From positions 40,681 through 104,680 of the IMG/VR virus record IMGVR_UViG_3300037258_000147: a stretch of 64,000 nucleotides of DNA; one strand, written 5' to 3'. Numbering within the stretch: position 1 is the stretch's first letter; each line of letters opens with the position of its first letter. Under the pieces are notes generated by a model. The model made no database searches and was not told the origin of the DNA. It saw nothing but the letters and a program-made list of their open reading frames with translations. A program made the translations under genes and the position numbers. Source of the DNA: a virus. Positions 9,716-32,594 of the stretch are shown here, piece by piece.

Positions 9716-9790
9716 TGGAGCGAAGCAGGGGAATCCGACCCCTTTCTCTGGTTTGGAAGACCAGGGCAACAAGCAATATACCAGCTTCGC
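9716..9790 (-). tRNA. tRNA-Gly(TCC)
   Basis: Acceptor GCGAAGC/GCTTCGC, anticodon arm CTGGT-CTTCCAA-ACCAG, encoded CCA. The T-loop is TCGGATT (C55, G56) and the D-loop has GC rather than GG, so both tertiary pairs 18-55 and 19-56 look like G-C and C-G. Confidence 0.88.
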
Positions 9791-9794
9791 AAAT

Positions 9795-9873
9795 TGGTCC
9801 CCGAAGGGTGAATTGAACACCCGATCTTTCGATTATCGGTCGAATGCTTTAAGCCAACTAAGCTATTCGGGGA
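9795..9873 (-). tRNA. tRNA-Ile(GAT)
   Basis: Acceptor TCCCCGAA closed with TTCGGGGA, anticodon arm TTCGA-CCGATAA-TCGAA, T-loop TTCAATT, D-loop with GG. Position 33 is C, not the near-universal U. CCA encoded. Confidence 0.88.
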
Positions 9874-9951
9874 TGGTACCAGAGACTGGATTCGAACCAG
9901 TGAAATTTTCTTTGTAGGAGAAACGGTTTAGACCACTCACACCACTCTGGC
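9874..9951 (-). tRNA. tRNA-Val(TAC)
   Basis: Acceptor GCCAGAG/CTCTGGT, anticodon arm TTTCT-CCTACAA-AGAAA with C33, standard GG D-loop and TTCGAAT T-loop. CCA encoded; begins directly after the Ile gene. Confidence 0.88.
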
Positions 9952-9956
9952 AAATA

Positions 9957-10032
9957 TGGTGCTCTCGGCTAGGCTCGAACTAGCATATCCATTTACGGTA
10001 CTTACCTTCGGAGGGTAAGCCGATACGGGAGC
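9957..10032 (-). tRNA. tRNA-Arg(CCG)-like, no D-arm, new arm order
   Basis: Exactly 76 nt with normal acceptor (one C-A mismatch), normal T-arm at 49-65 and CCA, but the anticodon-type hairpin TTACC-CTCCGAA-GGTAA sits at 15-31 instead of 27-43. A 3-bp helix 11-13/35-37 (CGG/CCG) encloses it, and linker 38-48 reads TAAATGGATAT. The same layout occurs in the gene at 10134. Confidence 0.6.
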
Positions 10033-10041
10033 AAAATTTTT

Positions 10042-10129
10042 ACAGCGGGCCAATGCAATCCAGAACTCGTCAGTTCTTCGTGCCCCTAAGTCGTTAGACA
10101 TGGACCATTGAATTATGCGCCCCCGCTGT
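10042..10129 (-). ncRNA. Unresolved tRNA-like element X
   Basis: 88 nt closed by a perfect 8-bp helix ACAGCGGG/CCCGCTGT. It contains a D-arm-like hairpin with GG (CAT-AATTCAATGGTCC-ATG) and a second hairpin AGAAC-TGACGA-GTTCT, but no normal T-arm and no CCA. It lies between the two unusual Arg tRNAs. Could be a degenerate tRNA or a distinct RNA. Confidence 0.4.
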
Positions 10130-10133
10130 AACT

Positions 10134-10209
10134 TGGAACCGCTGGCCAGACTCGAACTGGCATCTCCTCTTACTCTGTCTCGTTTAGGAAACGAGTGAGA
10201 TACAGCGGC
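10134..10209 (-). tRNA. tRNA-Arg(CCT)-like, no D-arm, new arm order
   Basis: 76 nt. Acceptor GCCGCTG/CAGCGGT, T-arm GCCAG-TTCGAGT-CTGGC at 49-65, CCA. The anticodon-type hairpin CTCGT-TTCCTAA-ACGAG is at 15-31. Helix 11-13/35-37 is CTC/GAG, covarying with CGG/CCG in the gene at 9957. Linker 38-48 is TAAGAGGAGAT, sharing TAAnnGGAnAT. Confidence 0.6.
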
Positions 10210-10213
10210 AAAA

Positions 10214-10289
10214 TGGAGGCCCCGGAGAGATTCAAACTCCCGACCAATCGGGTAGAAACCGATGACTCTGTTCACTGAGTTACGAGGCC
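10214..10289 (-). tRNA. tRNA-Arg(TCT)
   Basis: Acceptor GGCCTCG/CGGGGCC, D-stem ACTC/GAGT, anticodon arm ATCGG-TTTCTAC-CCGAT. The T-loop TTTGAAT carries U56 and the D-loop AGTGAACA carries A19, giving an A19-U56 pair in place of G19-C56. Confidence 0.88.
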
Positions 10290-10293
10290 GAAA

Positions 10294-10806
10294 TTAATAA
10301 GTTCTAAGAAGTCTAATGATTTGGGCAGAGTCGGCGAACTTTATCCATTCCCCTTCAGCTAGGTGAACATCAAATCTTTCTAGTAGCCCCTTTTCTGCGG
10401 AGCGTCTATCCAAACAAAACTCGTAGTTCTTGATGTAAAAAGCCTTATGCGGATCGTAGGTTTGATACGAAGCAAGCCTATCCTCAGTGTCAACCGTCAT
10501 TCCAATCTTCAAATAATCTGGCCATGTCGGGTTGGCAATGATGTAGACTTGGCCTTCTTTGCAATCTTTCGGCTTGCATCCTCTGGAGAATTTCAATTTT
10601 AGTAAATTTAAGCCGTGTATCTTCCTAGCCAAATTATAATCAAATTTTTTATTTCCTCCGATGCTCAAAGTTCCGTAAACTTTAACAGACTCAGATATCA
10701 TCTCTTCTGTTATATCAAAAGCAGAATATGGAGGTATTATACCGCGTTCGGACAGAATTTCTATCGTCTTTAGGCTTTTTTCACTAGGATTGCTCAAAGG
10801 ACTCAT
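10294..10806 (-). CDS. GIY-YIG / T5orf172-like nuclease, tRNA-array insertion 1
   Basis: 170 residues. The central segment GQVYIIANPTWPDYLKIGMT followed by a DRLASYQTYDP motif is the T5orf172/Mug113 form of the GIY-YIG fold, a family rich in homing-type nucleases. A paralogue lies at 15371-15889 in the same array. SD AAAAGGG before ATG. Placement between tRNA genes fits a selfish or array-reshuffling nuclease; catalytic activity not proved from sequence. Confidence 0.7.
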   Translation of the reverse strand: MSPLSNPSEKSLKTIEILSERGIIPPYSAFDITEEMISESVKVYGTLSIGGNKKFDYNLARKIHGLNLLKLKFSRGCKPKDCKEGQVYIIANPTWPDYLKIGMTVDTEDRLASYQTYDPHKAFYIKNYEFCLDRRSAEKGLLERFDVHLAEGEWIKFADSAQIIRLLRTY

Positions 10807-10835
10807 CCCTTTTCTAAAGTTAAACCAACTAGAAT

Positions 10836-10909
10836 TGGTACCTCGCTAGAGAATCGAACTCTATCCAACCGGGGTAAAAACCCGATATGCACCATCACAC
10901 TCACGAGGC
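10836..10909 (-). tRNA. tRNA-Lys(TTT)
   Basis: Acceptor GCCTCGT/GCGAGGT, anticodon arm TCGGG-TTTTTAC-CCCGG, T-arm TAGAG-TTCGATT-CTCTA, GG in the D-loop, CCA encoded. Standard features. Confidence 0.88.
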
Positions 10910-10949
10910 GTCTTTTATCACTCTCGGATTTTGGTGTCATAACTGCTTC

Positions 10950-11174
10950 TCAGCCAACTAGGTAGTCCGTGGTTTTTAATCCCTGTTCGATACGGAACGC
11001 TTCATTCCGTTTCCACGTCTTGCTTATCGACCAACCTAATAGCCTAATCAAACAATATTGAAATTTTGAACCGGAGAAAGCTGTACCATCGTTTGTCCCA
11101 AACAAAATTACATGGGCCGGATCAGCCACAGACCCTCTCCAAAATATTCTTGCCTGCGTTGGTCCTGTGTACAT
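10950..11174 (-). CDS. Hypothetical protein in the tRNA array (74 aa)
   Basis: ATG 11174 follows TTAGGAG at good spacing. MYTGPTQARIFWRGSVADPAHVILFGTN... looks beta-rich and resembles a small virion or collar-type protein, but I do not recognise it. Lies between two tRNA-Lys genes. Confidence 0.5.
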   Translation of the reverse strand: MYTGPTQARIFWRGSVADPAHVILFGTNDGTAFSGSKFQYCLIRLLGWSISKTWKRNEAFRIEQGLKTTDYLVG

Positions 11175-11192
11175 TTTTAACTACTCCTAAAA

Positions 11193-11267
11193 TGGTGGGT
11201 TGCCAGATAATCGAAATCTGTTCTTCCGGGTAAGAACCGGATGCTTCGCCAGCAAAGCTTGCAACCC
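11193..11267 (-). tRNA. tRNA-Lys(CTT)
   Basis: Acceptor GGGTTGC/GCAACCC, D-stem GCTT/GAAGC with GG, anticodon arm TCCGG-TTCTTAC-CCGGA, T-arm CAGAT-TTCGATT-ATCTG, CCA encoded. Confidence 0.9.
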
Positions 11268-11273
11268 GTTAAC

Positions 11274-11714
11274 TTACGGTATTGTGGTTACGGTAACAGT
11301 AACTGTTGTAGTAGTTCCACTTGGGGTAGAAGGAACGCCTGGAGTTCCGGGGACTACTACGAAAGCTGGAGCAGAAGAACCGCTTACTGCCGATGCTTGT
11401 TGAGTTTGAACTACGTAACAATAACTCGTTCCTGATGTTACGGATGAATCGACATATGCGGTTGCCTGCGGAGCAGAAACCCCAACTGAAGAATAAGACG
11501 ACGCAGTTAGTGGGCAAGTTGTTCCGGTAACTGGGGTTTTAGAAACCAGAAAAGTACAAGGTGCCGAAGTGCTGCATCCGGACCAACCAGGGGAAGCAGC
11601 AGGAACTGTCCAACTCAAATTAACCTGAAAAGAAGTCTGAGTTATCTGAGACTCGGCAGAACTTCCAAACACCAGCAGTCCAGCAAAAACCACAAACAGG
11701 AATATCTTCTTCAC
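11274..11714 (-). CDS. Secreted fibronectin-III-like protein
   Basis: Start placed at GTG 11714 (AAAGG upstream) because it begins a clean signal peptide, (V)KKIFLFVVFAGLLVFGSSA; the longer frame reads into a tRNA. About 146 residues; SFQVNLSWTVP...TSYCYVVQTQ is the usual A- to G-strand pattern of an FnIII/Ig-like domain, followed by a Pro/Thr-rich tail. Secreted or virion-displayed adhesion domain is likely. Confidence 0.55.
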   Translation of the reverse strand: MKKIFLFVVFAGLLVFGSSAESQITQTSFQVNLSWTVPAASPGWSGCSTSAPCTFLVSKTPVTGTTCPLTASSYSSVGVSAPQATAYVDSSVTSGTSYCYVVQTQQASAVSGSSAPAFVVVPGTPGVPSTPSGTTTTVTVTVTTIP

Positions 11715-11757
11715 GTGTTTTAGCCTTTCATGTCGTTCAAAATTCTTGAATATCGAA

Positions 11758-11849
11758 TGGTGGGCGACGAGGGAATCGAACCCGTCTGGCATCTCTCATC
11801 TAGAGACTACAGGGTTTATAAGGCCCCGCCCCGTCCTACGGCATCGCCC
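11758..11849 (-). tRNA. Class II tRNA, anticodon tentatively TAT
   Basis: 92 nt with acceptor GGGCGAT/GTCGCCC and CCA. A long variable arm GTCTC-TAGATGA-GAGAT is present. The best anticodon arm is GGGGC-CTTATAA-ACCCT with a C31-A39 mismatch, reading TAT. The T-stem has two mismatches. Identity uncertain; an Ile AUA reader on a class II body would be unusual. Confidence 0.45.
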
Positions 11850-11855
11850 AAACTT

Positions 11856-11870
11856 GTCCATTTAATGGAC
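11856..11870. repeat. GTCC-N7-GGAC palindrome between tRNA genes
   Basis: GTCCATTTAATGGAC, abutting the 3' end of the tRNA-Met gene at 11871 with no spacing. Confidence 0.85.
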
Positions 11871-11941
11871 TGGTCCCGAAGCGTGGAATCAAACCACTCA
11901 CCTGGTCTTATGAGAACCAGTGCTGAATCATCAGCCTCGGG
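11871..11941 (-). tRNA. tRNA-Met(CAT), short D-loop
   Basis: 71 nt. Acceptor CCCGAGG/CTTCGGG, anticodon loop CTCATAA on stem TGGTT/GACCA. The D-arm is CTGA-TGAT-TCAG with only four loop bases. T-loop TTTGATT (U56) pairs with A19 of the D-loop. Could be elongator Met or a lysidine-type Ile. Confidence 0.8.
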
Positions 11942-11948
11942 TAAAACA

Positions 11949-12022
11949 TGGCAGGAGATGAAGGATTTGAACCCTCGAATCCCGGGTTGGAGCCGGGCGG
12001 TTTCCGTTAAGCCTAATCTCCC
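11949..12022 (-). tRNA. tRNA-Trp(CCA)
   Basis: Acceptor GGGAGAT/ATCTCCT, anticodon arm CCCGG-CTCCAAC-CCGGG, T-arm GAGGG-TTCAAAT-CCTTC, GG in the D-loop. Its 5' ten bases overlap the stop of the endonuclease gene next door. Confidence 0.9.
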
Positions 12023-12441
12023 AAAAGATACTCGGATGCATTTTTTAGTAGAGAAGGATCGTCCTTAAAATGACCAATCCCTAGATTGCAACTCCTGCAC
12101 AACAATCCTCTTACTTTTCCCGTAAGATGATCGTGATCAACATGCAAAGGTTTGTCGTCTTTCTTACCACAAATCTTACAAATCCCATTCTGCTGCGAAA
12201 ATAAGAATAGGTATTCCGCTCCCGTCATCCCATATCTATTTGCTATTTTATAGCTAGGATGTGCTTTGTTCCATTTGTTTGCTTTAGAAATATATTTTTC
12301 TATGTTTCTGAGATAATGTTCTCTACGATAGTCGGCCTGGCAATCTCGGCATTGTTTATGCCTTATCCCTCTCGCTTCATCTCTAAAAGCAAAATCTTGT
12401 TCTTCGTCTTTAGAAGTATGACATTTAGAACAAATACTCAT
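12013..12441 (-). CDS. Recombination endonuclease VII-like HNH nuclease
   Basis: 142 residues. Two N-terminal CxxC pairs (CSKC about 4-7; CRDC about 32-35) and a second zinc/HNH core (CKICG, LHVDHDHLTGKVRGLLC, CNLGIGHFKDD) match the endonuclease VII family that cleaves branched DNA or homes. It is embedded in the tRNA array and its stop lies inside tRNA-Trp. Confidence 0.8.
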   Translation of the reverse strand: MSICSKCHTSKDEEQDFAFRDEARGIRHKQCRDCQADYRREHYLRNIEKYISKANKWNKAHPSYKIANRYGMTGAEYLFLFSQQNGICKICGKKDDKPLHVDHDHLTGKVRGLLCRSCNLGIGHFKDDPSLLKNASEYLLGD

Positions 12442-12456
12442 TTTATTATCAAGAAG

Positions 12457-12533
12457 TGGTAGCCCTAGTAGGATTCGAACCTACACTATGACTCGTTCGT
12501 AGCGAGTATGACTTTCCAGTTGCCGATAGGGCC
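12457..12533 (-). tRNA. tRNA-Arg(ACG)
   Basis: Acceptor GGCCCTA/TAGGGCT, anticodon arm ACTCG-CTACGAA-CGAGT, T-arm GTAGG-TTCGAAT-CCTAC, GG in D-loop, CCA encoded. Standard architecture, unlike the other two Arg genes at 9957 and 10134. Confidence 0.9.
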
Positions 12534-12541
12534 GTAAAACT

Positions 12542-12616
12542 TGGTCTCCGAGCGGGGATTCAAACCCCGGACGCCGCGCCCCAAACGCGGAATGTTTTCA
12601 CTACACTACTCAGAGA
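12542..12616 (-). tRNA. tRNA-Pro(TGG)
   Basis: Acceptor TCTCTGA/TCGGAGA, anticodon arm CCGCG-TTTGGGG-CGCGG, T-arm CGGGG-TTTGAAT-CCCCG. U56 in the T-loop is matched by A19 in D-loop AGTGAAA. Confidence 0.88.
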
Positions 12617-12620
12617 TAAA

Positions 12621-12699
12621 TGGTGCGGGTGGCAGGATTTCAACCTGCGATCTCCTGTTCCCGAAACAGGCGCGTTAAGGCAAACTTCGCTACACCCAC
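12621..12699 (-). tRNA. tRNA-Pro(CGG)
   Basis: Acceptor GTGGGTG/CACCCGC, D-stem GCG/CGC, anticodon arm CCTGT-TTCGGGA-ACAGG, T-arm GCAGG-TTGAAAT-CCTGC. G56 is matched by C19 (TTTGCCTT in the D-loop). Confidence 0.88.
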
Positions 12700-12716
12700 T
12701 TAAACTTTTCGGCCAC

Positions 12717-12784
12717 GATAAAACTCTGTTCCCCCGCTTCCGACTAGGTTCGAACCTTCTGGGCGTTGGGTGTCTTGTTTTATC
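12717..12784 (-). ncRNA. Unresolved tRNA-like element Y
   Basis: 68 nt closed by perfect GATAAAAC/GTTTTATC. It contains a central palindrome AGGTTCGAACCT that could be a T-loop- or Ser(CGA)-like hairpin but has no normal D- or T-arm placement and no CCA. Nature unclear. Confidence 0.3.
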
Positions 12785-12814
12785 TTCGCTCTTTCGAACT
12801 AGGCCAAAACTTTA

Positions 12815-12889
12815 TGGTGGACTCGGGCGGACTTGAACCGCCATCGCGCAAGGCTTCAACATGCCGCTCTACATTGGAGCTACGAGTCC
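12815..12889 (-). tRNA. tRNA-Phe(GAA)
   Basis: Acceptor GGACTCG/CGAGTCC, D-arm GCTC-CAATGTA-GAGC lacking GG, anticodon arm GCATG-TTGAAGC-CTTGC with one T-T mismatch, T-arm GGCGG-TTCAAGT-CCGCC, CCA encoded. Confidence 0.87.
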
Positions 12890-13070
12890 GAATTTTGATA
12901 TACGACTTGAGGTCGCTGCGACTCCCGTAGGGGCCACTCTTTCTTGTGGTGTCAGCCAAAGCAACCCGATAGACATCTGACAATGCCCGTCAAATTACTC
13001 CCGTATAAACTTGGTGGACCTGTTGTCATCCCTCCGCGCTTTCGCTACGCGGCCCTATGAGGGTTTACGA
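12890..13070. other. Structured non-coding gap
   Basis: No gene supported. Holds short hairpins, for example CCGCG-CTTTCGCTA-CGCGG near 13031-13052, and a possible outer pairing TATACG (12899) with CGTATA (13002). Frames crossing it are tRNA shadows. Confidence 0.4.
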
Positions 13071-13146
13071 TGGTGGACCCGGAGGGATTGCAACCCTCAA
13101 AACTACATTGCAGGTGTAGTATGATCGCATGTTTCATCACGGGCCC
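13071..13146 (-). tRNA. tRNA-Ala(TGC)
   Basis: Acceptor GGGCCCG/CGGGTCC, anticodon arm CTACA-CCTGCAA-TGTAG with C33, T-arm GAGGG-TTGCAAT-CCCTC. G56 is matched by C19 in D-loop AACATGCGA. The 3' end of the adjacent HNH gene overlaps 44 bases of this tRNA. Confidence 0.87.
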
Positions 13147-13396
13147 GTTTAAATCCAGTATACATTCCATCTTTTGCTAGAAAATGTTCAAGATCGTGGC
13201 AATTAGGACACAAAATTTCCAAATTGGACGGATCATTATTTGCGTGACTACGATCCTTATGGTGAACCTTCAAAATTCCAACTTGTTCATCATATCCGCA
13301 TCGATTGCATTTCGAGGGATAGTTTCTTCTTGCAATTTCCCGATAAGTCCCCTCTGGGGGGGGGGGGGGCGACCACCGAAGCAAGATATCCACCAT
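13103..13396 (-). CDS. HNH endonuclease with homopolymer tract, tRNA-array insertion
   Basis: 97 residues; CNRCGYDEQ, HHKDRSHANNDPSNLEILC and CPNCH give a standard HNH core. Codons 10-14 (PPPPP) are encoded by a run of 14 C on the coding strand (13356-13369), so slippage would switch the frame right after the start. The last 14 codons overlap tRNA-Ala. Likely homing-type. Confidence 0.7.
   Translation of the reverse strand: MVDILLRWSPPPPPEGTYREIARRNYPSKCNRCGYDEQVGILKVHHKDRSHANNDPSNLEILCPNCHDLEHFLAKDGMYTGFKRARDETCDHTTPAM
13356..13369. repeat. Run of 14 G
   Basis: Mononucleotide tract within codons 10-14 of the HNH gene; candidate slippage site or sequencing-sensitive position. Confidence 0.8.
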
Positions 13397-13699
13397 CTGT
13401 AGAACTTCTACGCTACAGAACGTTCGTCACTCCAGAGTTTAGCATCCTCTGACACTTTCAAAAAGTCCCGCTGGTCCTCACCAATACCCGAGTCGAACGG
13501 GAAAGCGGGTTTGTCGCAGCCTACCATTAGAAGACGGTCCAAAGACCGGAGAGATTCGAACTCTCATTTACGACCCACATCAAGCCAGACATCCTATCCA
13601 CTAGACGACGCTCCGACTCGGGGACTGTTTACTCGTGTTTGCATCCACGTCAGTCCTTGCTCAGAACGGGATGATTCGAACATCCGTCCTCTGGCACCT
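13397..13699. other. Non-coding stretch with tRNA-like remnants
   Basis: No complete tRNA could be built. On the minus strand it has T-arm-like hairpins GAGAG-TTCGAAT-CTCTC (about 13547-13563), CCCG-TTCGACT-CGGG (about 13485-13500) and a long bulged hairpin around GGATG-TTCGAAT-CATCC (about 13667-13683), plus D-arm-like text with TAGTGGATAG and TAATGGTAG. Looks like degenerate or atypical tRNAs. Confidence 0.4.
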
Positions 13700-13775
13700 T
13701 GGAGGGAAGGGAGCGAGTCGAACGCTCTAAAGACATGATCCACAATCATGCGCCGCACCGTTTGGCTTCCAACCC
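13700..13775 (-). tRNA. tRNA-His(GTG)
   Basis: Anticodon arm CATGA-TTGTGGA-TCATG, D-stem GCC/GGC with GG, T-arm GAGCG-TTCGACT-CGCTC, CCA encoded. The acceptor GGGTTGG/CCTTCCC has two adjacent U-U mismatches, unusual for a working tRNA. Confidence 0.8.
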
Positions 13776-13994
13776 AATTTTTGTTGTCCATTTTATGGAC
13801 TAAATTTGAGGACCAGACCGTTGGACACCTCGTTGCTTATTGCGGTCGGCTTGATCTCTTTTATGCGGAAGCCGAGTGGTAATCTTCCGCAGAGCCAAAC
13901 TCACGGTGTAAATTTGTCGGTGCTCTCCCTGGTGTCACACCACTGGTTAGGCAAAAGGTATTAGCTCTGCTACCGGGCAAGGTGTCGCCCATTA
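13776..13994. other. Non-coding gap with palindrome copy and strong hairpin
   Basis: Contains a GTCC palindrome at 13786-13800 and an 8-bp hairpin TGCGGAAG/CTTCCGCA (about 13864-13891). No gene or complete tRNA seen. Confidence 0.4.
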
Positions 13995-14065
13995 TGGAGC
14001 CGATGTACGGAGTTCAACCGTCAGGAACTCTTTACAGGAGAGTGCCGCTTGCGAAGCACATCGGC
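13995..14065 (-). tRNA. tRNA-Thr(TGT)
   Basis: 71 nt. Acceptor GCCGATG/CATCGGC perfect; anticodon arm ACTCT-CCTGTAA-AGAGT with C33; T-arm GACGG-TTGAACT-CCGTA with G56, matched by GC in the short D-loop. An alternative loop CTGTAAA (Tyr) needs a 3-bp stem and is less likely because a good Tyr gene exists at 17806. Confidence 0.75.
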
Positions 14066-14355
14066 TAACTTTTCGGTGGTATCTTCCCTCAAACCCTGAT
14101 ACTAGGTCCCTCATCTGAGTCCTTGCAGACCCCAGCACCGATGAAATTCGAGTGATGACGAATCGGACTTGATACCGATTCCTACTTTCGCGGTTGCGCC
14201 GCTACCATGCCACTAGGGAATCTCTTAATGTACACTCAGTTCTACCCCGGTAGGAGAAGCCCTAACACCTTCAAAGCTGCACGTCCATCCGTGCGGATCG
14301 TCATCACCAAATACATTGTCTCACAACTCTAAAAACTTGTCAACCTAAATTTTGT
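14066..14355. other. Structured non-coding gap
   Basis: Holds inverted ends TCGGTG (14073) and CACCGA (14141), a 7-bp hairpin GAATCGG/CCGATTC near 14158-14180 and GCGG-CGCAA-CCGC near 14190-14203. No coding frame or complete tRNA could be supported. Confidence 0.35.
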
Positions 14356-14664
14356 CTAAATCGTATCGTTTTGTTCTAAAGACTCTAACAGCCACAAATC
14401 TACAGACAGTTGGGTCCGATCTTCTTGGTACCCGATCTCCTGTCCATTTTCTGGAAGCAGTTTTTCCGCCAAGATTAGAGTTGGTTCTATTAAAGAATCT
14501 AACCAAGGGTAGTCTGTTCTGGCCCGATCAAGTTCGGCCATATCCGCTAAAATCAGATTGCCGCTGTCCATTTGTGAAAATATATCAGGAAGAGGCGGCG
14601 CTGGTTTTTGCGCTTTGTGGTGATGGAAGCCGAGGATCACATATAACAAACCTACTGAAATCAT
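14356..14664 (-). CDS. Small protein with N-terminal hydrophobic segment
   Basis: Start placed at ATG 14664, preceded by AAGGAAG; the longer frame adds 18 residues. 102 residues: MISVGLLYVILGFHHH then a Pro-rich linker and an acidic helical C-terminus. Single-pass or signal-anchored topology, possibly lysis-related; not recognised. Confidence 0.5.
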   Translation of the reverse strand: MISVGLLYVILGFHHHKAQKPAPPLPDIFSQMDSGNLILADMAELDRARTDYPWLDSLIEPTLILAEKLLPENGQEIGYQEDRTQLSVDLWLLESLEQNDTI

Positions 14665-14758
14665 AGCTTCCTTTTCAAAGAGAGGTCGAAGTCGGAACTG
14701 CCCCGACACCGTATCCATACCAGGGATACATTCTTCTAGTTAAACTATTCGACCAAAT

Positions 14759-14834
14759 TGGAGCACCTGACCGGAGTCGAACCGGTGACTTCCTCTTTAC
14801 GGGAGAGGCGCTGTGCCGTCTGAGCCACAGGTGC
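14759..14834 (-). tRNA. tRNA-Thr(CGT)
   Basis: Acceptor GCACCTG/CAGGTGC, anticodon arm CCTCT-CCCGTAA-AGAGG with C33, T-arm ACCGG-TTCGACT-CCGGT, GG in the D-loop, CCA encoded. Confidence 0.88.
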
Positions 14835-14868
14835 AGTAAGGTATCATAAAAGTGACCTTAAGTAGGTT

Positions 14869-14890
14869 AAGGTGTCATATATGACACCTT
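14869..14890. terminator. Perfect 22-bp palindrome
   Basis: AAGGTGTCATA mirrored exactly by TATGACACCTT, next to a GTCC palindrome at 14892-14906. No U-tract, so it could be an operator or a processing hairpin instead of a terminator. Confidence 0.4.
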
Positions 14891-14891
14891 A

Positions 14892-14906
14892 GTCCATTAT
14901 ATGGAC
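14892..14906. repeat. GTCC-N7-GGAC palindrome copy
   Basis: GTCCATTATATGGAC between tRNA-Thr(CGT) and a non-coding stretch to 15048 where I see no gene. Confidence 0.85.
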
Positions 14907-15048
14907 TGAAATTTATGCCAACTCGGTGGACGAAAGTTCGAGGGGGGTGTCTAATCGTCTACCTCTGGTCGCGACTAGTTCTAGGCCGCTGGCTGGAGCT
15001 TCTTCGCCTTATCACAGACCCTTATCCGCAAAAAGGTTGAATAGAAAT

Positions 15049-15122
15049 GGAGCGGGCGACGGGTCTTGCCCCCGCAACCTTTGCATTGGCAACGCAATGT
15101 TCTGCAATTGAACTACGCCCGC
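15049..15122 (-). tRNA. tRNA-Gly(GCC)
   Basis: Acceptor GCGGGCG/CGCCCGC, anticodon arm TTGCG-TTGCCAA-TGCAA, CCA encoded. The T-loop is GGCAAGA, so the invariant U54-U55 are replaced by GG; the D-loop AATTGCA lacks GG. Confidence 0.83.
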
Positions 15123-15126
15123 GAAA

Positions 15127-15202
15127 TGGCAGGGAGTACAGGAATCGAACCTGTCTGGGTGGGTCCAAAGGCCACCGCCTGAAACCAATCGGCCAACTCC
15201 CT
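15127..15202 (-). tRNA. tRNA-Gln(TTG)
   Basis: Acceptor AGGGAGT/ACTCCCT, anticodon loop CTTTGGA on GTGG/CCAC with a C31-C39 mismatch, T-arm ACAGG-TTCGATT-CCTGT, GG in the D-loop. Confidence 0.85.
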
Positions 15203-15210
15203 GTAAAACT

Positions 15211-15284
15211 TGGCACCCCGTCGTGGATTCGAACCACGATACTCTGCTTCAGAAACAGAAGTCCTGCCGTTGAACGAACGGGGT
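15211..15284 (-). tRNA. tRNA-Gln(CTG)
   Basis: Acceptor ACCCCGT/ACGGGGT, anticodon arm TCTGT-TTCTGAA-GCAGA, T-arm CGTGG-TTCGAAT-CCACG, GG in D-loop, CCA encoded. Confidence 0.88.
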
Positions 15285-15289
15285 AAATT

Positions 15290-15364
15290 TGGCTCCTCCC
15301 CTCCGACTCGAACGGAGACCTTTTTGGTTAACTGCCAAAAGCAATGCCATTATGCTAGAGAGGA
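15290..15364 (-). tRNA. tRNA-Asn(GTT)
   Basis: Acceptor TCCTCTC/GGGAGGA, anticodon arm TTTGG-CAGTTAA-CCAAA with A at position 33, T-arm CTCCG-TTCGAGT-CGGAG, GG in the D-loop, CCA encoded. Confidence 0.86.
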
Positions 15365-15370
15365 ATAAAA

Positions 15371-15889
15371 TCAAAAAGTGCGAAGAGTTCTGATGATTTC
15401 CAGGGAATTAGAATGCTTAATCCATTCTCCCTCTTCGAGGTGAAAACCAAAATCATCCAACAACTTCTTTTCTGCTTCTCTTCTATCAAGAACGAATTCG
15501 TAATTCTTGATGTAAAAAGCCTTGAAAGGATCATACGTCTGATACGAATCCAGTCTCGCTTCCGAATCTACAGACATGCCTATCTTGATGTGATCCGGCC
15601 AGGCTGGGTTACCGATCAAGTAGATTTGTCCTTCTTTACAATCCTTCGGTTTGGCTCCTCGATGAAACTTCAATCTTAAGAGTTCTAGGCCCGCTAATTT
15701 TCTGGCGTACCTATATTGGAATTTTCCATTACTTTTCGGGGCAAGACTACCATAGATTCGGATGTACTCGGAAAGCATTTCTTCTGTAATATCGAAGGTT
15801 GTGTACGGAGGGACAATATCTGCATCCGAGAGAAGTCTTACAGTTTCTGCAATTCTTTCTGTTCTTCCTATTTCTTTAGGGTTGCTCAA
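15371..15889 (-). CDS. GIY-YIG / T5orf172-like nuclease, tRNA-array insertion 2
   Basis: 172 residues, starting at TTG 15889 after AAGGGGAG. Close paralogue of the gene at 10294: shares FDITEEMxSE, KPKDCKEGQ(I/V)YxI and KIGM(T/S)VD and SYQTYDPxKAFYIKNYEF. The duplication within one array suggests spread by homing or unequal recombination. Confidence 0.7.
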   Translation of the reverse strand: MSNPKEIGRTERIAETVRLLSDADIVPPYTTFDITEEMLSEYIRIYGSLAPKSNGKFQYRYARKLAGLELLRLKFHRGAKPKDCKEGQIYLIGNPAWPDHIKIGMSVDSEARLDSYQTYDPFKAFYIKNYEFVLDRREAEKKLLDDFGFHLEEGEWIKHSNSLEIIRTLRTF

Positions 15890-15912
15890 CGGCTCTCCCC
15901 TTTTGAATTTTA

Positions 15913-15989
15913 TGGTAGGGATGGTGAGGCTCTAACTCACTAGGACGTGGGTGAAGGCCACGGCACTCGAACACTTTGTATTCATCCCC
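15913..15989 (-). tRNA. tRNA-Glu(TTC)
   Basis: Acceptor GGGGATG/CATCCCT, anticodon arm CGTGG-CCTTCAC-CCACG with C33, T-arm GTGAG-TTAGAGC-CTCAC. A56 is matched by U19 (AAAGTGTTCGA in the D-loop). CCA encoded. Confidence 0.83.
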
Positions 15990-15994
15990 ATAAA

Positions 15995-16129
15995 TTTGTG
16001 CGACTTACTCGGTGATCGAGTCGAACGATCCCCCGCTACTTTTGCATTCACGGGTGACAACCAGGGTTCCGTCCTCAGCATCAGATTTGCTGTCTTCCGC
16101 CTTGTAGTCCTAATGGACAGCCGCACAAA
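15995..16129 (-). ncRNA. Unresolved tRNA-like RNA W
   Basis: 135 nt closed by perfect TTTGTGCG/CGCACAAA. Includes a good T-arm-like hairpin GATCG-TTCGACT-CGATC, a GTCC-TAAT-GGAC hairpin near the 5' end and CAGC-AAATCTGAT-GCTG. No CCA. Its size and T-loop recall RNAs at 20017 and 35394. Confidence 0.4.
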
Positions 16130-16142
16130 CTATTTTAAAACT

Positions 16143-16823
16143 TTAAAACGCTACATCACTCCAGGTCAGTTGAATATTTTTGTACAAAGTATTCAATCCT
16201 CCAGGTACTAAAGTTTCTGTTTGCAACTGAATAGCCGCGACTGAAGACCAGTTTGAGGTTTGACTAGGTAGTTCTTGCAAATTACTCGGGACTGAAAATT
16301 CTGTGGCTCCCCAAGTAGTAGACAGCATACTGAACTTGTTGTTCGGTACGTCTATGAAATATCTGAAACTTATTGGCGTCCAAGTGTCAGGAGCCAGAGT
16401 TGGTTTAAACCCAGTGTCTATCCAGCCCGGAGGGGATGTGTCGATCTGCCAGCTTCCGGTAGACAAATTCAACTGTGAACTAAAGTTGAAGACATTAGGA
16501 ATCTGTGTACTTGCGTTGGGGGCTGATTGCGAAACTACTTTTACGTCAATCTCCAGCCGTCCCAAAACAGGAAGATCAAAAGACGAAACGTAAACTTGTA
16601 AATCCAATCCCAGATATGGTAAAAAAATTCCGGGGATACTAGGGACCGGGCGCTTATTGGTTACTAACGCCCCACCAAAAGCTGAGGTACTTACGTTGGT
16701 TACCTTCAGAGCCCCAGACGGAAGTAACGTCGGGATAAAAGCTGAAGAAGGAATAGGATTTACGCTTGCTCCGGTTTGTACTACCCACGTGCCTTTTTCC
16801 AGTCCATCATCAATTACCCGCAT
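16143..16823 (-). CDS. Lectin-like virion protein (226 aa)
   Basis: ATG 16823 is preceded by AGGAGACT. Beta-rich sequence with NFSSQLNLSTGSWQIDTSPP, DTWTPISFRYFIDV and LYKNIQLTWSDVAF, the rhythm of a concanavalin/laminin-G-type sandwich. Likely a virion carbohydrate-binding or fibre-tip protein inserted among tRNAs. Family assignment is by appearance only. Confidence 0.55.
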   Translation of the reverse strand: MRVIDDGLEKGTWVVQTGASVNPIPSSAFIPTLLPSGALKVTNVSTSAFGGALVTNKRPVPSIPGIFLPYLGLDLQVYVSSFDLPVLGRLEIDVKVVSQSAPNASTQIPNVFNFSSQLNLSTGSWQIDTSPPGWIDTGFKPTLAPDTWTPISFRYFIDVPNNKFSMLSTTWGATEFSVPSNLQELPSQTSNWSSVAAIQLQTETLVPGGLNTLYKNIQLTWSDVAF

Positions 16824-16834
16824 TAGTCTCCTAT

Positions 16835-16909
16835 TGGTAGCCTACCAGAGAATCAAACTCTGTTCTCGATCTTGAGAAAATCGCATCCTAATCAGTAGAA
16901 GAGTAGGCC
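16835..16909 (-). tRNA. tRNA-Glu(CTC)
   Basis: Acceptor GGCCTAC/GTAGGCT, D-stem TTCT/AGGA, anticodon arm CGATT-TTCTCAA-GATCG, T-arm CAGAG-TTTGATT-CTCTG. U56 is matched by A19 in D-loop ACTGATT. Confidence 0.87.
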
Positions 16910-16955
16910 GTTTTATATTCCACGCCAACGAATTACTGTCATGGTTACTCCTAAA

Positions 16956-17030
16956 TGGCGGGACCGACGAGAATCAAACTCGCATCTTTCTCCTCGACAG
17001 GGAGACATCTTATCATTAGACTACGGTCCC
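16956..17030 (-). tRNA. tRNA-Asp(GTC)
   Basis: Acceptor GGGACCG/CGGTCCC, anticodon arm TCTCC-CTGTCGA-GGAGA, T-arm GCGAG-TTTGATT-CTCGT. U56 is matched by A19 in D-loop TAATGATAA. Confidence 0.9.
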
Positions 17031-17033
17031 AAT

Positions 17034-17111
17034 TGGTTGCGGCTCTCGGGAGTTGAACCCGGTATCCCAAGGGTATGAGTCTTGGATGGTCATCCGTTCC
17101 ACTCAGCCGCA
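17034..17111 (-). tRNA. tRNA-Met/Ile(CAT), second CAT gene
   Basis: Acceptor TGCGGCT/AGCCGCA, D-arm GTGG-AACGGATGA-CCAT, anticodon loop CTCATAC with an A31-C39 mismatch, T-loop TTCAACT with one extra base on the 3' side of the stem. CCA encoded. Abuts the HNH gene stop at 17112. Confidence 0.78.
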
Positions 17112-17726
17112 TCAAAATTTAAAAATTCCTGCATCATATTCCCAATGATGATTTGGACACAAGGGTAGGAGGTTATCAATATCATTGATCTCTCTTATCA
17201 AAGTGTCAGTAGAAAAAGAGGAAACTGATCTAATATGAGCAACGTCAACGTGATTCGAATACCCGCAAACACAGCATTTCTTCTCTTTACCCCCGTCTAG
17301 GTATGTCTGTCTGGCATGTCGTTGAATCGAACTTCTAGCAGATTGATACCCGCCTCTTCGACCAAACAACTCGCCTTTCGTCCACCCCGAAAGTTTCCCA
17401 GTTCTAGTTTTCTTTAAGCCTCGAACTTTCTTGCACTCTTCAGAACAAGTAAACTTTCTTTTAGGAACAGGAGCCCCACAGACCCGACATCTACGAGAAA
17501 TATTCTTGTTTCGTTTCCTTTTCTTAGGAAATTTTGCATTGTTAAAACTCGCAGAACAAGTTCTGTTACAGAACTTCTTTTGTCGAATTTCAGATACTTT
17601 CCTTTTTGGATCAATAGTAATCATTGACAAACAATGCTTACAAAAATTAGGGTTTGCTAAGTACCTTTCCTCCGCTCTCTGCCTTTGCAGTAAAGCGGAG
17701 ACTATCGAACCACTTGATTTTGCCAT
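17112..17726 (-). CDS. Zinc-ribbon HNH endonuclease, tRNA-array insertion
   Basis: 204 residues. Three Cys-rich modules (CKHC, CRVCG, CSEECKK) lead to an HNH core with KKCCVCGYSNHVDVAHI, INDIDNLLPLCPNHH. Ends exactly at the 5' end of a tRNA gene. Likely a homing-type nuclease recognising tRNA-array DNA; inference from family and position. Confidence 0.75.
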   Translation of the reverse strand: MAKSSGSIVSALLQRQRAEERYLANPNFCKHCLSMITIDPKRKVSEIRQKKFCNRTCSASFNNAKFPKKRKRNKNISRRCRVCGAPVPKRKFTCSEECKKVRGLKKTRTGKLSGWTKGELFGRRGGYQSARSSIQRHARQTYLDGGKEKKCCVCGYSNHVDVAHIRSVSSFSTDTLIREINDIDNLLPLCPNHHWEYDAGIFKF

Positions 17727-17805
17727 ACCTAAACGTAAGTTTCCTTTCTCGTATGTTTTATCATACCACAGAAGTCCAGATAATGGAAATCTTTTCTGTG
17801 AAAAA

Positions 17806-17892
17806 TGGTGGGTTGTGTAGGGCTTTAACCTACCATGCTCGAAGGAGCGCCACTTTTACAGAGTGGGAGCCGTACGCCCGGCAATACAACCC
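17806..17892 (-). tRNA. tRNA-Tyr(GTA)
   Basis: Class II. Acceptor GGGTTGT/ACAACCC, anticodon arm CCACT-CTGTAAA-AGTGG, long variable arm CGCTCCTTCGAGCATG, T-arm GTAGG-TTAAAGC-CCTAC. A56 is matched by U19 in the D-loop (GGCGTA). Confidence 0.9.
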
Positions 17893-17897
17893 AAAAA

Positions 17898-17982
17898 TGG
17901 AGGAGAGCAGCCGAATCGAACGGCCATCCCGAAGGAGCCCCGGTTTTCAAGACCGGATGTATCACCATCAACAGTGCTCTCC
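17898..17982 (-). tRNA. tRNA-Ser(TGA)
   Basis: Class II. Acceptor GGAGAGC/GCTCTCC, anticodon arm CCGGT-CTTGAAA-ACCGG, variable arm GGCTCCTTCGGGATG, T-loop TTCGATT, GG in the D-loop. Confidence 0.9.
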
Positions 17983-18065
17983 GAATATAACATGACAAGT
18001 TATAAAAAGTCAAGGTCCTATATATGGGTCGTTAATCCACTATACGACCTATATATGAACCAAAA

Positions 18066-18153
18066 TGGCGGAAGATGAAGTAATCGAAACCTTGTCCATT
18101 TAATGGACAGCATCGGGTTCGAGCCGATTTGACCGCCTTGGTCGCCATCTTCC
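18066..18153 (-). tRNA. tRNA-Ser(CGA) with palindrome as variable arm
   Basis: Acceptor GGAAGAT/ATCTTCC, anticodon arm ATCGG-CTCGAAC-CCGAT, T-loop TTCGATT, CCA encoded. The variable arm is GTCCATTAAATGGAC (18094-18108), a copy of the genome-wide palindrome. Confidence 0.88.
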
Positions 18154-18161
18154 GTTAACTT

Positions 18162-18183
18162 GGCCATGTTAATTATCATGGCC
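18162..18183. other. Hairpin between Ser tRNA genes
   Basis: GGCCATG-TTAATTAT-CATGGCC, 7-bp stem with no U-tract. Possible processing element or weak terminator. Confidence 0.35.
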
Positions 18184-18189
18184 GTGATA

Positions 18190-18277
18190 TGGCGGATGGG
18201 ACAGGACTCGAACCTGCACATGCTTTCACATGAGCCGACTTTCCAAGCCGGTGCGATACCGTTCCGCTCACCCATCC
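18190..18277 (-). tRNA. tRNA-Ser(GGA)
   Basis: Class II. Acceptor GGATGGG/CCCATCC, anticodon arm CCGGC-TTGGAAA-GTCGG, variable arm CTCATGTGAAAGCATGT, T-arm GCAGG-TTCGAGT-CCTGT, GG in the D-loop. Confidence 0.9.
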
Positions 18278-18299
18278 AATTTTTACTGTACAGCAAATA

Positions 18300-18392
18300 T
18301 GGCGGAGAGTGAGGGCTTCGATCCCCCGTGTCCAAATAATGGACAGCCTCTGTTTAGCAAACAGGCACAATACCGGGCTCTGTCAACTCTCC
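18300..18392 (-). tRNA. tRNA-Ser(GCT) with palindrome as variable arm
   Basis: Acceptor GGAGAGT/ACTCTCC, anticodon loop TTGCTAA on CTGT/ACAG, T-loop ATCGAAG, CCA encoded. The variable arm is GTCCATTATTTGGAC (18330-18344), a second independent use of the genome-wide palindrome in a tRNA. Confidence 0.86.
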
Positions 18393-18398
18393 AAAAAT

Positions 18399-18578
18399 TT
18401 AAACTTTCATTCTCCGGTAGTCTGTCCAAGCTTCTTTTCTTGTACTTCCTATTCCCAGAACTTGTTCCCAACGATCACGGCCTCCTATGGAATAGGGTTT
18501 GGGAGGCAAAAAACCACCAAAGCATACTACGAATCCACTGTTGTCTTCTAAACTACGGCAATAAACTTTGTCAGACAT
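18399..18578 (-). CDS. Hypothetical protein in the tRNA array (59 aa)
   Basis: Start at ATG 18578 with GGAG 6-7 nt upstream; the longer frame is a read-through of the neighbouring tRNA-like element. MSDKVYCRSLEDNSGFVVCFGGFLPPKPYS...RKEAWTDYRRMKV. Looks like a small folded domain; unknown. Confidence 0.5.
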   Translation of the reverse strand: MSDKVYCRSLEDNSGFVVCFGGFLPPKPYSIGGRDRWEQVLGIGSTRKEAWTDYRRMKV

Positions 18579-18591
18579 TGTTTCTCCAGCT

Positions 18592-18685
18592 TGGTGCGGC
18601 TTCGAGCCGTCAGCGCCAACGGTTGACTCTCCGTAAAACTTTCTTAGTCTAGACTTTGAGTCTAGCAATCTGGACCTTTCGCCGC
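18592..18685 (-). tRNA. Atypical tRNA-Leu(CAA)-like element
   Basis: Ends CCA; acceptor GCGGCGA/AAGCCGC has five good pairs. A perfect hairpin CTAGA-CTCAAAG-TCTAG would read CAA, but it sits at 21-37 with only 13 nt before it, so no normal D-arm. The long 3' part contains ACGG-AGAGTCAA-CCGT and no standard T-arm. Confidence 0.4.
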
Positions 18686-18810
18686 CGGTCGCCCAGTGGG
18701 GGTTTAGCGCCCAGATAACGCCCCTATCTCGTAACCGTGATTGGCCGCTCCACAATCCTTCGGACTCGGTTATTTGATAATCTATGTGTCAAACACAGTG
18801 CTAAGAAACT

Positions 18811-18886
18811 TGGTCCCCGCGCCCAGATTCGAACTGGGAAAATTACTGGGTTTGAGCCAGTCGCTCTGCCGTTTCGCTACGCGGGG
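18811..18886 (-). tRNA. tRNA-Leu(CAA) on a class I body
   Basis: Acceptor CCCCGCG/CGCGGGG, anticodon arm ACTGG-CTCAAAC-CCAGT, short variable loop, T-arm CCCAG-TTCGAAT-CTGGG, CCA. Bacterial Leu tRNAs normally have a long variable arm, so this is unusual. Confidence 0.82.
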
Positions 18887-18892
18887 GTGATA

Positions 18893-18978
18893 TGGTGGGC
18901 ACGGCGAGACTCGAACTCGCAATCGGTTTTACCCTTCCGGTTTCTAAGACCGGCGCTTTGCCATTTTGCTACGCGCCC
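18893..18978 (-). tRNA. tRNA-Leu(TAG)
   Basis: Normal class II. Acceptor GGGCGCG/CGTGCCC, anticodon arm CCGGT-CTTAGAA-ACCGG, variable arm AAGGGTAAAACCGATT, T-arm GCGAG-TTCGAGT-CTCGC, GG in the D-loop. Confidence 0.9.
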
Positions 18979-18986
18979 GTAAAATA

Positions 18987-19062
18987 TGGAGGTCCAGATC
19001 GGACTCGAACCGACGATTAAGAGTTTTGCAGACTCTCGCATTTGCCGCTTTGCTACTGGACC
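18987..19062 (-). tRNA. tRNA-Cys(GCA)
   Basis: Acceptor GGTCCAG/CTGGACC, anticodon arm AGAGT-CTGCAAA-ACTCT, T-arm GTCGG-TTCGAGT-CCGAT, GG in D-loop, CCA encoded. Confidence 0.9.
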
Positions 19063-19063
19063 A

Positions 19064-19138
19064 TGGTGCGATAGGAGGGACTCGAACCCTCAGACGCTGG
19101 GTTTTAAATCCAGATGATTTGCCATTCTCTACTATCGC
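19064..19138 (-). tRNA. tRNA-Leu(TAA) on a class I body
   Basis: Acceptor GCGATAG/CTATCGC, anticodon loop TTTAAAA on CTGGA/CCCAG (A-C mismatch at the loop), five-base variable loop CGTCT, T-arm GAGGG-TTCGAGT-CCCTC. First tRNA of the array in transcription order; also short-armed for a Leu tRNA. Confidence 0.85.
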
Positions 19139-21938: not shown

Positions 21939-22490
21939 TCAAACCACGAACACGTCTTTATGCGCGTTATAAGTCTGGATTACGGACAAGCTTCTTTTGG
22001 GATCAGTAGACCATCTGCTAGTATTAAACTGCCAGGAACCTGAGGGGAACGTCACTACCGGGTGGGATATAGTATCATTTAGGGTCCCCTGCTTAACCCA
22101 AGACGCCGAAACCAAACGGACAAAATCTTCGCCGGTAGTAGCTTCAAGAGCTTCTGAATAATAATTAGGCAGAGATTTTAAAACTCTGATCCGGGCAGAA
22201 AAGCAGTCCGCGTAAGATTCGAAGACCGGCCACTTCGCCGAGACCATTACTGAGACGCCGTGTAAAACCTCTCTGGTCTGGATTTCGTCTACTTGCCCAG
22301 TCCACCAGCCTGGTTGCTTTAAACCGAACACGTCTTTGTCCCTATAGGCCAACCCAGACTGTCCATTAACGGAGGAGTATGACGCAGATTCCAGAAAGGC
22401 TTCTGCCGCAGCGTATCCAGGAAACGGGTGGTCAGAAGTCTTGGCTTCTGAAACCATCAGGCGCGCGAATTCTAGTTCTGGTTCAGTCAT
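21939..22490 (-). CDS. Glucosaminidase-like endolysin
   Basis: Start at ATG 22490, overlapping the TGA of the gene upstream. 183 residues. ELEFARLMVSEAK, AAAEAFLESASYSS, SGLAYRDKDVFGLK and a repeated SYADCFSARIRVL match the GH73/Mannosyl-glycoprotein endo-beta-N-acetylglucosaminidase domain, with the catalytic Glu in AEAFLESA. It would cut peptidoglycan at lysis or entry. Ends with a short tail suited to binding. Confidence 0.75.
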   Translation of the reverse strand: MTEPELEFARLMVSEAKTSDHPFPGYAAAEAFLESASYSSVNGQSGLAYRDKDVFGLKQPGWWTGQVDEIQTREVLHGVSVMVSAKWPVFESYADCFSARIRVLKSLPNYYSEALEATTGEDFVRLVSASWVKQGTLNDTISHPVVTFPSGSWQFNTSRWSTDPKRSLSVIQTYNAHKDVFVV

Positions 22491-22923: not shown

Positions 22924-23507
22924 TTTCAGGTTCTTGTGTTAACTACTTAAATAACATTTGAATTCATTGTTATTTATTTAATTACTAATTTTTATTTTAA
23001 GTTGTTTGTTATCAGCGAGTCGATGATTAGGGGTTATTTAAATTTGGTGTTTACTATTTAAATAACATTGTTGTATTTCTGATTGGGGATTTCAAAAGTG
23101 TTTTCCCGAGTTTTTGGAGACTTTTTAAACTTTTTTGTTTATAACAAAGAAGTTAGGATGTGTTTATCAATTAGTTACTAGGGTCCACTGAGATGAAAGA
23201 GAGGTTGCTAGGTCACTGGTAGCCGCTCGGCACTCCTCAAGGGGGTTAGGCCGCCCGTACCTGGCTTCTCAATCTAGGGTCCCCTAAGTCTTTTGTACTG
23301 AGCAACTTAAAACCTTGTCGAGTGTACTACTAGACATACTCTCTGTCTATACCTCGACCTAGTTCCGTCACACTTTCGTCTCAATCGTGCGTATATCATT
23401 GATATAAAAGGCCGATTGATAACGAACGTTGTAGATGGCCGATTGGGCCGTCTGTCCGATACCCTAGTTGCTCTAGGCTATTCTGTAGAAAATATAGTCA
23501 TGTAACC
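22924..23507. other. AT-rich divergent intergenic region, origin candidate
   Basis: About 580 bases with no gene. 22935-23160 is strongly A+T rich with repeated TTAAATAACATT (near 22947 and 23062) and poly-T runs; 23170-23507 is mixed and structured. Transcription diverges across it (minus arm left, plus arm right from 23913), the usual place for replication origin or early control sites. Confidence 0.5.
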
Positions 23508-32056: not shown

Positions 32057-32594
32057 ATGGTAACTTGGATCAAAGACGCAAACGGCAATAAATGTTCTGT
32101 CGAGCATTGGGGGTCGGAAGAGGCGGCGCAGAAGGCGCTGGACTCCCTCCAGGACTGCAAAAACTGTATTAACTGCTCCTACTGCTCCGGCTGCTCCGGC
32201 TGCTCCGGCTGCTCCGGCTGCTCCGGCTGCTCCGATATCGCCTTTGAGCGATTCTTTATCGCTCAAAGGCGATCCGGAATCGAAGTGGGCCGGACCGCCT
32301 GCGGTGCCAAAAATAGAGAACATCCACAAGAAAATCTACGAGGCCGCTTCGATTCCGCCAAAAGCTTTAGATATGGGCAACTGGCATGCCTGCGGAACCA
32401 CTCATTGTCGCGGCGGATGGGCGGTGCATCTGGCCGGTGATGCTGGATACGCCTTGGAGCAGTTTCATGGGACGTTGCTGGCCGCGCAACTCATCTACCG
32501 CGAGAGTGGCTGCCCCATCAGCCCATGCCGGTTCTTCGACAGCAACGCCGACGCCTTAGCCGACATGAAGCGGCTGGCCGAACAGGATTCATAG
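32057..32594 (+). pseudogene. Cys-repeat protein interrupted by a +1 frameshift at a hairpin
   Basis: Reads MVTWIKDANGNKCSVEHWGS..., then CSGC repeats to CSDIAFER (32057-~32250); a second frame from TTG 32244 carries the rest, GDPESKWAGPPAVPKIENIH...WHACGTTHCRGGWAVHLAG...FDSNADALADMKRLAEQ, ending 32594. I recall intact proteins with both halves. The break lies in a perfect 13-bp hairpin (GCCTTTGAGCGAT/ATCGCTCAAAGGC, ~32239-32270). Either inactivating or programmed frameshift. Confidence 0.65.

Follow-up and report, generated by a model that had tools for sequence, protein, structure and literature searches.

Does the outer tertiary pair of the transfer RNA (tRNA) elbow, G19-C56 between the D-loop and the T-loop, have to consist of these two letters? 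The pair hardly varies in tRNAs across life, is treated as invariant, and lies within reach of the ribosome, RNase P, T-box RNAs, and many enzymes. The question is raised by a tRNA array in the window examined in this study, a 64,000-nucleotide stretch corresponding to positions 40681-104680 of a 104,680-base virus record (IMG/VR IMGVR_UViG_3300037258_000147). The array (9716-19138, minus strand) holds about 35-40 tRNA genes with homing-endonuclease-like open reading frames (ORFs) between them. Eleven of these genes have replaced C56, and the unswapped members keep G19-C56, with the exceptions given below. The analysis confirmed that covariation of positions 19 and 56 is real in this viral lineage, where the pair takes all four Watson-Crick forms.

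On the window, ARAGORN called 28 tRNAs under strict settings and 35 under relaxed settings, and a custom scan that looked for the acceptor, anticodon, and T stems together with NCCA added Met (11871), Thr-TGT (13995), Glu-TTC (15913), and others. The swapped genes all lie on the minus strand. The C19-G56 form is carried by tRNA-Gly(TCC) (9716-9790; C19 at 9773, G56 at 9736; T-loop TCGGATT, also with C55), tRNA-Pro(CGG) (12621-12699; 12680 and 12641), tRNA-Ala(TGC) (13071-13146; 13127 and 13091; base 57 is C), and tRNA-Thr(TGT) (13995-14065; 14051 and 14015; from the custom scan). A19-U56 is found in tRNA-Arg(TCT) (10214-10289; A19 at 10272, U56 at 10234), tRNA-Met(CAT) (11871-11941; 11928 and 11891; mini D-loop CTGA-TGAT-TCAG, from the custom scan and missed by ARAGORN), tRNA-Pro(TGG) (12542-12615; 12598 and 12562), tRNA-Glu(CTC) (16835-16909; 16892 and 16855), and tRNA-Asp(GTC) (16956-17030; 17013 and 16976), while U19-A56 is found in tRNA-Glu(TTC) (15913-15989; U19 at 15971, A56 at 15933) and tRNA-Tyr(GTA) (17806-17892; 17874 and 17826). 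The original prediction had listed the same genes under the same three forms, about 11 in all with 19 changing along with 56, and each assignment was verified individually: in 11/11 genes the base that follows G18 on its 3' side can form a Watson-Crick pair with 56, with position 19 read by eye in Met and Thr-TGT, which have mini D-loops of 3-4 bases. The standard cloverleaf tRNAs of the window include nine without C56, and all nine pair 19 with 56. The remaining tRNAs were said to be mostly G-C, which is true of the standard ones apart from Leu-TAA, an error of the positional rule described below, Phe-GAA (loop CAATGTA, C56), a probable 19-56 mismatch, and Gly-GCC and Thr-GGT, which carry G55. 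Beyond 17892 the array continues to 19138, and the added Ser, Leu, and Cys genes keep G-C.

The window belongs to a tailed phage, as its genes for portal, major capsid, and terminase proteins show, and is one of a group of soil viruses of bacteria with dozens of tRNA genes. No DNA-level relatives of the window were found among named phages. Three other virus records are close by DNA polymerase, namely G001 (62%, best segment), G002 (49%), and G003 (62%), which together with the window form the core set of four records; 80 related loci were found by major capsid protein, and a wider set of sixteen related records combines the core with twelve further relatives. Alignment to the Rfam tRNA model was dropped as a means of placing position 19, as the model contains no D-T pair and misplaced G18/G19 in Pro-CGG, and a positional rule blind to 56 was therefore used: counting from the fourth D-loop base onward, the first G is taken as 18 and the base that follows it as 19. 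Under this rule the core set yielded 103 standard tRNAs, of which 41 lack C56, and 41/41 of these form a Watson-Crick 19-56 pair. When base 56 was shuffled among the 41 tRNAs, a mean of 14.9 pairs was obtained (standard deviation 3.0, maximum 26 in 5,000 shuffles), and control combinations in the core set (positions 17, 20, and 21 against 56, and position 19 against 55, 57, and 60) were near or below their shuffle means. Placing 19 independently of 56 does not reduce the pairing to chance.

In the wider set, 67 of 207 tRNAs lack C56 and 65 of these are paired (shuffle maximum 38 in 10,000 shuffles). The two unpaired cases are Arg-TCT genes in which a run of G precedes an A; position 19 may be that A, so they are ambiguous. 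Across the 207 tRNAs the pair is G-C in 126, A-U in 25, C-G in 25, and U-A in 15. G.U is found in 0/103 core tRNAs, and the wider set contains two ambiguous wobble cases. By the rule, 14 tRNAs of the wider set have C56 without G19; most of these are A18/G55 types or rule errors. For the Phe-GAA of the window, G091 Thr-TGT (loop CAATGTA, C56), and Ile-GAT in both G003 and G088, a true mismatch or a U18/G19 type is possible. D-loops of 3-5 bases, read by eye, likewise hold a GN that matches 56. Such mini-D-loop tRNAs, with G18N19 matching 56, occur at 11871-11941 and 13995-14065 of the window, at 32521-32592 of G001, and at 22247-22319 and 23043-23112 of G003.

Could the swapped genes instead be decaying pseudogenes, with pairing produced by chance or misalignment? 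The array does contain odd neighbours, including tRNA-Arg genes without a D arm and tRNA-like fragments at 12.7-14.3 kb. For the swapped cloverleaf tRNAs, however, this explanation is refuted by the pairing statistics, which exceed every shuffle, and it is very improbable overall. The stems are also intact: acceptor-stem mispairs number 0 in the 103 core tRNAs and T stems are nearly complete, a result that is partly due to selection because stem thresholds belonged to the scan, and tRNA detection favours regular genes. CCA is encoded by 139/144 non-C56 viral tRNAs. Among the ARAGORN calls of the core records, G18 is present in 102/102 and U55 in 97/102, the exceptions including A18/G55 and C55 types, and 19-56 pairing is conserved in essentially all tRNAs of the lineage, unlike the elbow-less mitochondrial type, in which no D-T loop contact can form. 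Together with the compensated double changes between orthologs described next, these results strongly support the original prediction that this looks like real co-evolution and not decay.

More than one 19-56 form is seen in 27 of the 34 isoacceptors found in at least two core records (a few entries are rule errors). In same-anticodon comparisons within the core, 19-56 differs in 59% and both sides differ in 49%; the corresponding rates are 52-60% for acceptor pairs 4-7, 50% for T51-63, and 20% for T53-61. Within the lineage, 19-56 therefore has a switching rate like that of ordinary stem pairs. Orthologs with differing elbow states are 76-87% identical elsewhere, and examples include Thr-TGT (C-G and U-A, 87%), Arg-CCG (G-C and A-U, 87%), Arg-ACG (U-A and C-G, 86%), Trp (G-C and U-A, 83%), and Ile-GAT (A-U and U-A, 81%). 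This pattern bears on the idea that one or two ancestral swaps were spread by tRNA gene duplication followed by anticodon change. The nearest relative shares the elbow state in 22/65 swapped tRNAs, and in 12/23 at 75% identity or more, and counts of swaps are not counts of events because some cases share ancestry. However, the differences between records within isoacceptors, including these close orthologs, and the separate cases in other viruses and in Saccharibacteria make so few events highly improbable.

By ARAGORN, C56 is absent from 38/102 tRNAs of the core records (about 37%) and from 18/697 (2.6%) of sampled other viral tRNAs (Fisher p about 4e-24), where the comparison sample was collected with a pattern open at 56 but tied to one T-stem sequence per locus, and the tRNAs are not independent. 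Elbow swaps are present in other viruses, as the search proposed with the original prediction was meant to find out; they are rarer and nearly all compensated (42/44 in tRNAs not selected for them and 17/18 in the sample open at 56). Pairing, the four states, switching between orthologs, the near absence of wobble, intact cloverleafs, and the contrast of about 37% with 2.6% can all be read from sequence alone. No report of natural 19-56 covariation was found in a limited, mostly open-access literature.

In a pattern scan of cellular tRNAs, those without C56 belonged, among the matches listed, almost only to Candidatus Saccharibacteria, where tRNA-Ala carries A19-U56 or U19-A56 and tRNA-Gly carries U19-A56 and rarely A19-U56, again among the matches listed. 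A search of 61 Saccharibacteria-class genomes with the pattern W19/W56 (A or T at both positions) gave 17 matches, all of them compensated (17/17). Compensated A-U or U-A elbows were noted in cellular tRNA-Ala, tRNA-Gly, and tRNA-Pro at L275-L392 (mostly Candidatus Saccharibacteria) and in G009. Swapped elbows thus work in some cells. Loss of the pseudouridine enzyme TruB was considered as an enabler of the swaps in Saccharibacteria and rejected: TruB is kept in 58/61 genomes, so its loss is not what permits swapping there.

The cellular cases suggest that the phage might simply follow a host whose own tRNAs, ribosomes, or RNase P tolerate swapped elbows. However, one single-contig Saccharibacteria genome has swaps in just 2 of the 39 tRNAs found, none of them C-G, and the nearest cultured relative of the window phage by capsid gene, Tunturi_3, infects the acidobacterium Tunturiibacter (major capsid protein 42% and portal 32% identity). 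No host is assigned to the window phage because no prophage form was found in GTDB genomes by DNA polymerase; the capsid genes hint at a soil acidobacterium as one candidate. Host likeness is accordingly a doubtful explanation. Tunturi_3 was also rejected as a model for the tRNA array, as it has just two ARAGORN tRNA calls, one of undefined type.

What, then, would allow the letters to change while the pair persists? The pair is probably held by its shape, a flat Watson-Crick platform, with the constraint on its G-C identity released in this lineage. Under this explanation the D and T loops would dock normally, with a constant G18 and with the 19-56 pair at the L's outer corner, and selection would act on the planar platform that closes the elbow and leave the letters free. 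Selection on shape alone would let genes shift among G-C, A-U, C-G, and U-A by compensated double changes, and strict pairing with wobble excluded and free letters is the pattern expected if only the platform is selected. The phage tRNAs would be made and used. Any Watson-Crick pair at 19-56 would be accepted by RNase P, by the L1 stalk, and by the A-site finger, as all three would stack on it; in published structures, RNase P, L1 stalk, and T-box recognize the elbow chiefly through stacking on the flat outer face of 19-56 (PMC4810234). The usual fixers of G19-C56 would be unimportant for these tRNAs in their host. Candidates are base-specific contacts, such as that of L1 Arg130 to N2 of G19 (PMC3602588), or T-loop modification enzymes, and the balance of the evidence favours the view that base-specific elbow readers do not matter for phage tRNAs.

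Two points weigh against this explanation. A purely neutral path from G-C through G.U to A-U would predict an excess of A-U and some wobble intermediates, but C-G and A-U have equal counts (25 each) and wobble is absent from the core records, so strong selection against intermediates or a directional force is needed. In addition, neutral release leaves the roughly 15-fold excess of the lineage over other viruses unexplained.

A rival explanation is an arms race, in which G19 or C56 is recognized by a tRNA-targeting defence nuclease of the host or by a T-loop modification enzyme, and the lineage keeps altering the letters within an unchanged fold so that its tRNAs escape recognition. The original prediction had likewise proposed that the swaps might conceal the elbow from nucleases or modification enzymes of the host. 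The very high swap rate of the lineage fits such a conflict, as do the abundance of both transversion forms and the absence of wobble. Base 56 is A or G in 40/65 swaps of the lineage compared with 13/42 in other viral tRNAs (Fisher p = 0.003), a shift that tends to favour hiding, and by comparison with the TruB/Pus4 motif 53-GUUYRANYC-61 (PMC7912444) alone, members with U56 fit at 56 and these 40 members with G56 or A56 do not. Phage tRNAs are also known to escape anticodon nucleases through sequence change (PMC10264068). However, no elbow-specific defence nuclease was found in the literature searched, and switching does not outpace that of ordinary stem pairs, which a released constraint explains as well; on these two grounds hiding is no more than a possibility. 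G-C is retained in about 60% of the tRNAs, and the elbow pair is constant across the four core records in several isoacceptors (Lys-CTT, Gln-CTG, Asn, Ser-GGA, and Ser-GCT), while Saccharibacteria, with swapped cellular tRNAs, retain TruB. Swapped elbows may possibly evade host factors, but an arms race as the general explanation is unlikely, and it is only tentatively that 19-56 can be regarded as a variable signature whose letters are rotated since a host factor reads G19 or C56. If this were true, the conflict between phage and host over tRNAs would be fought at the elbow as well as at the anticodon loop.

The fold of these tRNAs is probably that of the canonical elbow (G18-U55, G19-C56, U54-A58): G18 is kept, U55, R57, and A58 are mostly kept, the D- and T-loops have normal size in most genes, and 19-56 is Watson-Crick. 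The canonical elbow is G-C only, whereas the lineage uses all four forms, and its 53-61 pair and U33 are also somewhat looser than in canonical tRNA. In favour of a pair held by shape, in Escherichia coli tRNA-Leu, as summarized in a later paper, a broken 19-56 pair abolishes aminoacylation and G19C/C56G keeps it (Du and Wang 2003, via PMC3602588); this variant shares its C-G elbow with the lineage, but as described there it is an engineered single case, whereas the swaps of the lineage are natural, repeated, and spread over many isoacceptors. Metazoan mitochondrial tRNAs also depart from the G18G19/T-psi-C rule but lose the D-T contact (PMC7609411), which the lineage keeps with new letters. 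The nuclease-evading phage tRNAs resemble those of the lineage in being phage-encoded and in departing from the host sequence; their changes are in the anticodon loop, and that report makes no mention of the elbow, T-loop, or D-loop (PMC10264068). The tRNA-Ala, tRNA-Gly, and tRNA-Pro of Saccharibacteria share compensated A-U and U-A pairs with the lineage, but they involve few isoacceptors per genome, include no C-G in the genome examined, and are common to many genomes of the group. Suppressor tRNAs selected with altered D- and T-loops, in work by Zagryadskaya (2004) and Kotlova (2007), reportedly rebuilt their D-T contacts from other sequences and were functional in E. coli; these were laboratory selections, whereas the lineage represents natural variation.

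A natural series of all four Watson-Crick forms separates the duty of the pair, to pair and stack, from the letters it is allowed, and the swapped phage tRNAs are ready-made substrates for testing which machines read the letters of 19-56. The results further suggest that phage tRNAs are scored too low by tRNA finders and consensus models that expect G-C at 19-56, and that the same elbow move has occurred in a few cellular tRNAs of Saccharibacteria.

Other elbow contacts vary as well. Among 1,833 distinct viral tRNAs, 63 carry G55, and 58/63 of these have A18G19 and not G18G19; viral tRNAs with T55 and C56 have GG at 18-19 in 1,511/1,563. The 18-55 pair thus covaries too, and G18.U55 appears to be replaced by A18.G55 in these tRNAs, with examples at L257, L039, L148, L153, L105, and others, and at 14682-14754 of the window (Thr-GGT). 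The T-loop pair 54-58 also covaries among the 1,833 tRNAs (U-A in 1,729, A-U in 49), and an A54-U58 example in the core records is Gly-GCC at 31599-31674 of G001 (loop ATCGTTG).

The tRNAs without a D arm are all Arg (CCT, CCG, TCT). They occur in the window (9957-10032 and 10134-10209, minus strand), in G002, and in three or more further contigs (L016 964-1122; L062, L140, and L516). Their variable region is the pairing partner of bases 11-13 (CTC:GAG, CGG:CCG), and a D-loop-like UAARNGG(A) directly precedes the T stem, an arrangement that resembles a permuted D arm. The Arg-CCG of L016 has U56 with GA in the displaced loop, which matches the prediction of the pairing rule.

C33 replaces U33 in 17/102 core tRNAs and in 22/697 other viral tRNAs; in the window it is found in Val-TAC (9874-9951, misnamed Cys by ARAGORN), Ile-GAT (9795-9872), Ala-TGC, Thr-TGT, and Glu-TTC. 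A tRNA-Ile with anticodon TAT, a short D arm, and a long variable region is present in most lineage records (window 11758-11849; G001 33431-33525; L016 578-671; G003 23200-23292) and would be expected to read AUA independently of the usual lysidine route.

The window phage also encodes a DNA polymerase, a primase-helicase, a RecT-like protein, an RNA ligase, and an integrase. No tRNA-modification or aminoacyl-tRNA synthetase genes were found among the subset of window ORFs scanned. The RNA ligase gene that follows the DNA polymerase gene was considered as a correlate of the swaps and set aside, as it was not found there in G001-G003, one of which is cut at that point. The tRNA genes are interspersed with T5orf172/MUG113-type, endonuclease VII, and HNH genes (10294-10806, 12013-12441, 15371-15889, and 17112-17726), in the manner of homing endonucleases within an array. 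An HNH endonuclease gene also adjoins the major capsid gene of the window phage, a gene that seems to be split in several relatives (L018 12186-13938 and many of L452-L493), possibly by an intron or an inserted homing gene.

At about 12705-14300 (minus strand), the window contains a stretch of hairpins and tRNA-like pieces, none of which corresponds to a standard tRNA; among them is a 7-bp stem near 14160 with the loop TATCAAGT, in which TCA is anticodon-like. The palindrome TGTCCATTNNATGGACA recurs in spacers and in the variable arms of two tRNA-Ser genes (e.g., 11857-11871, 18080-18100, and 18320-18340).

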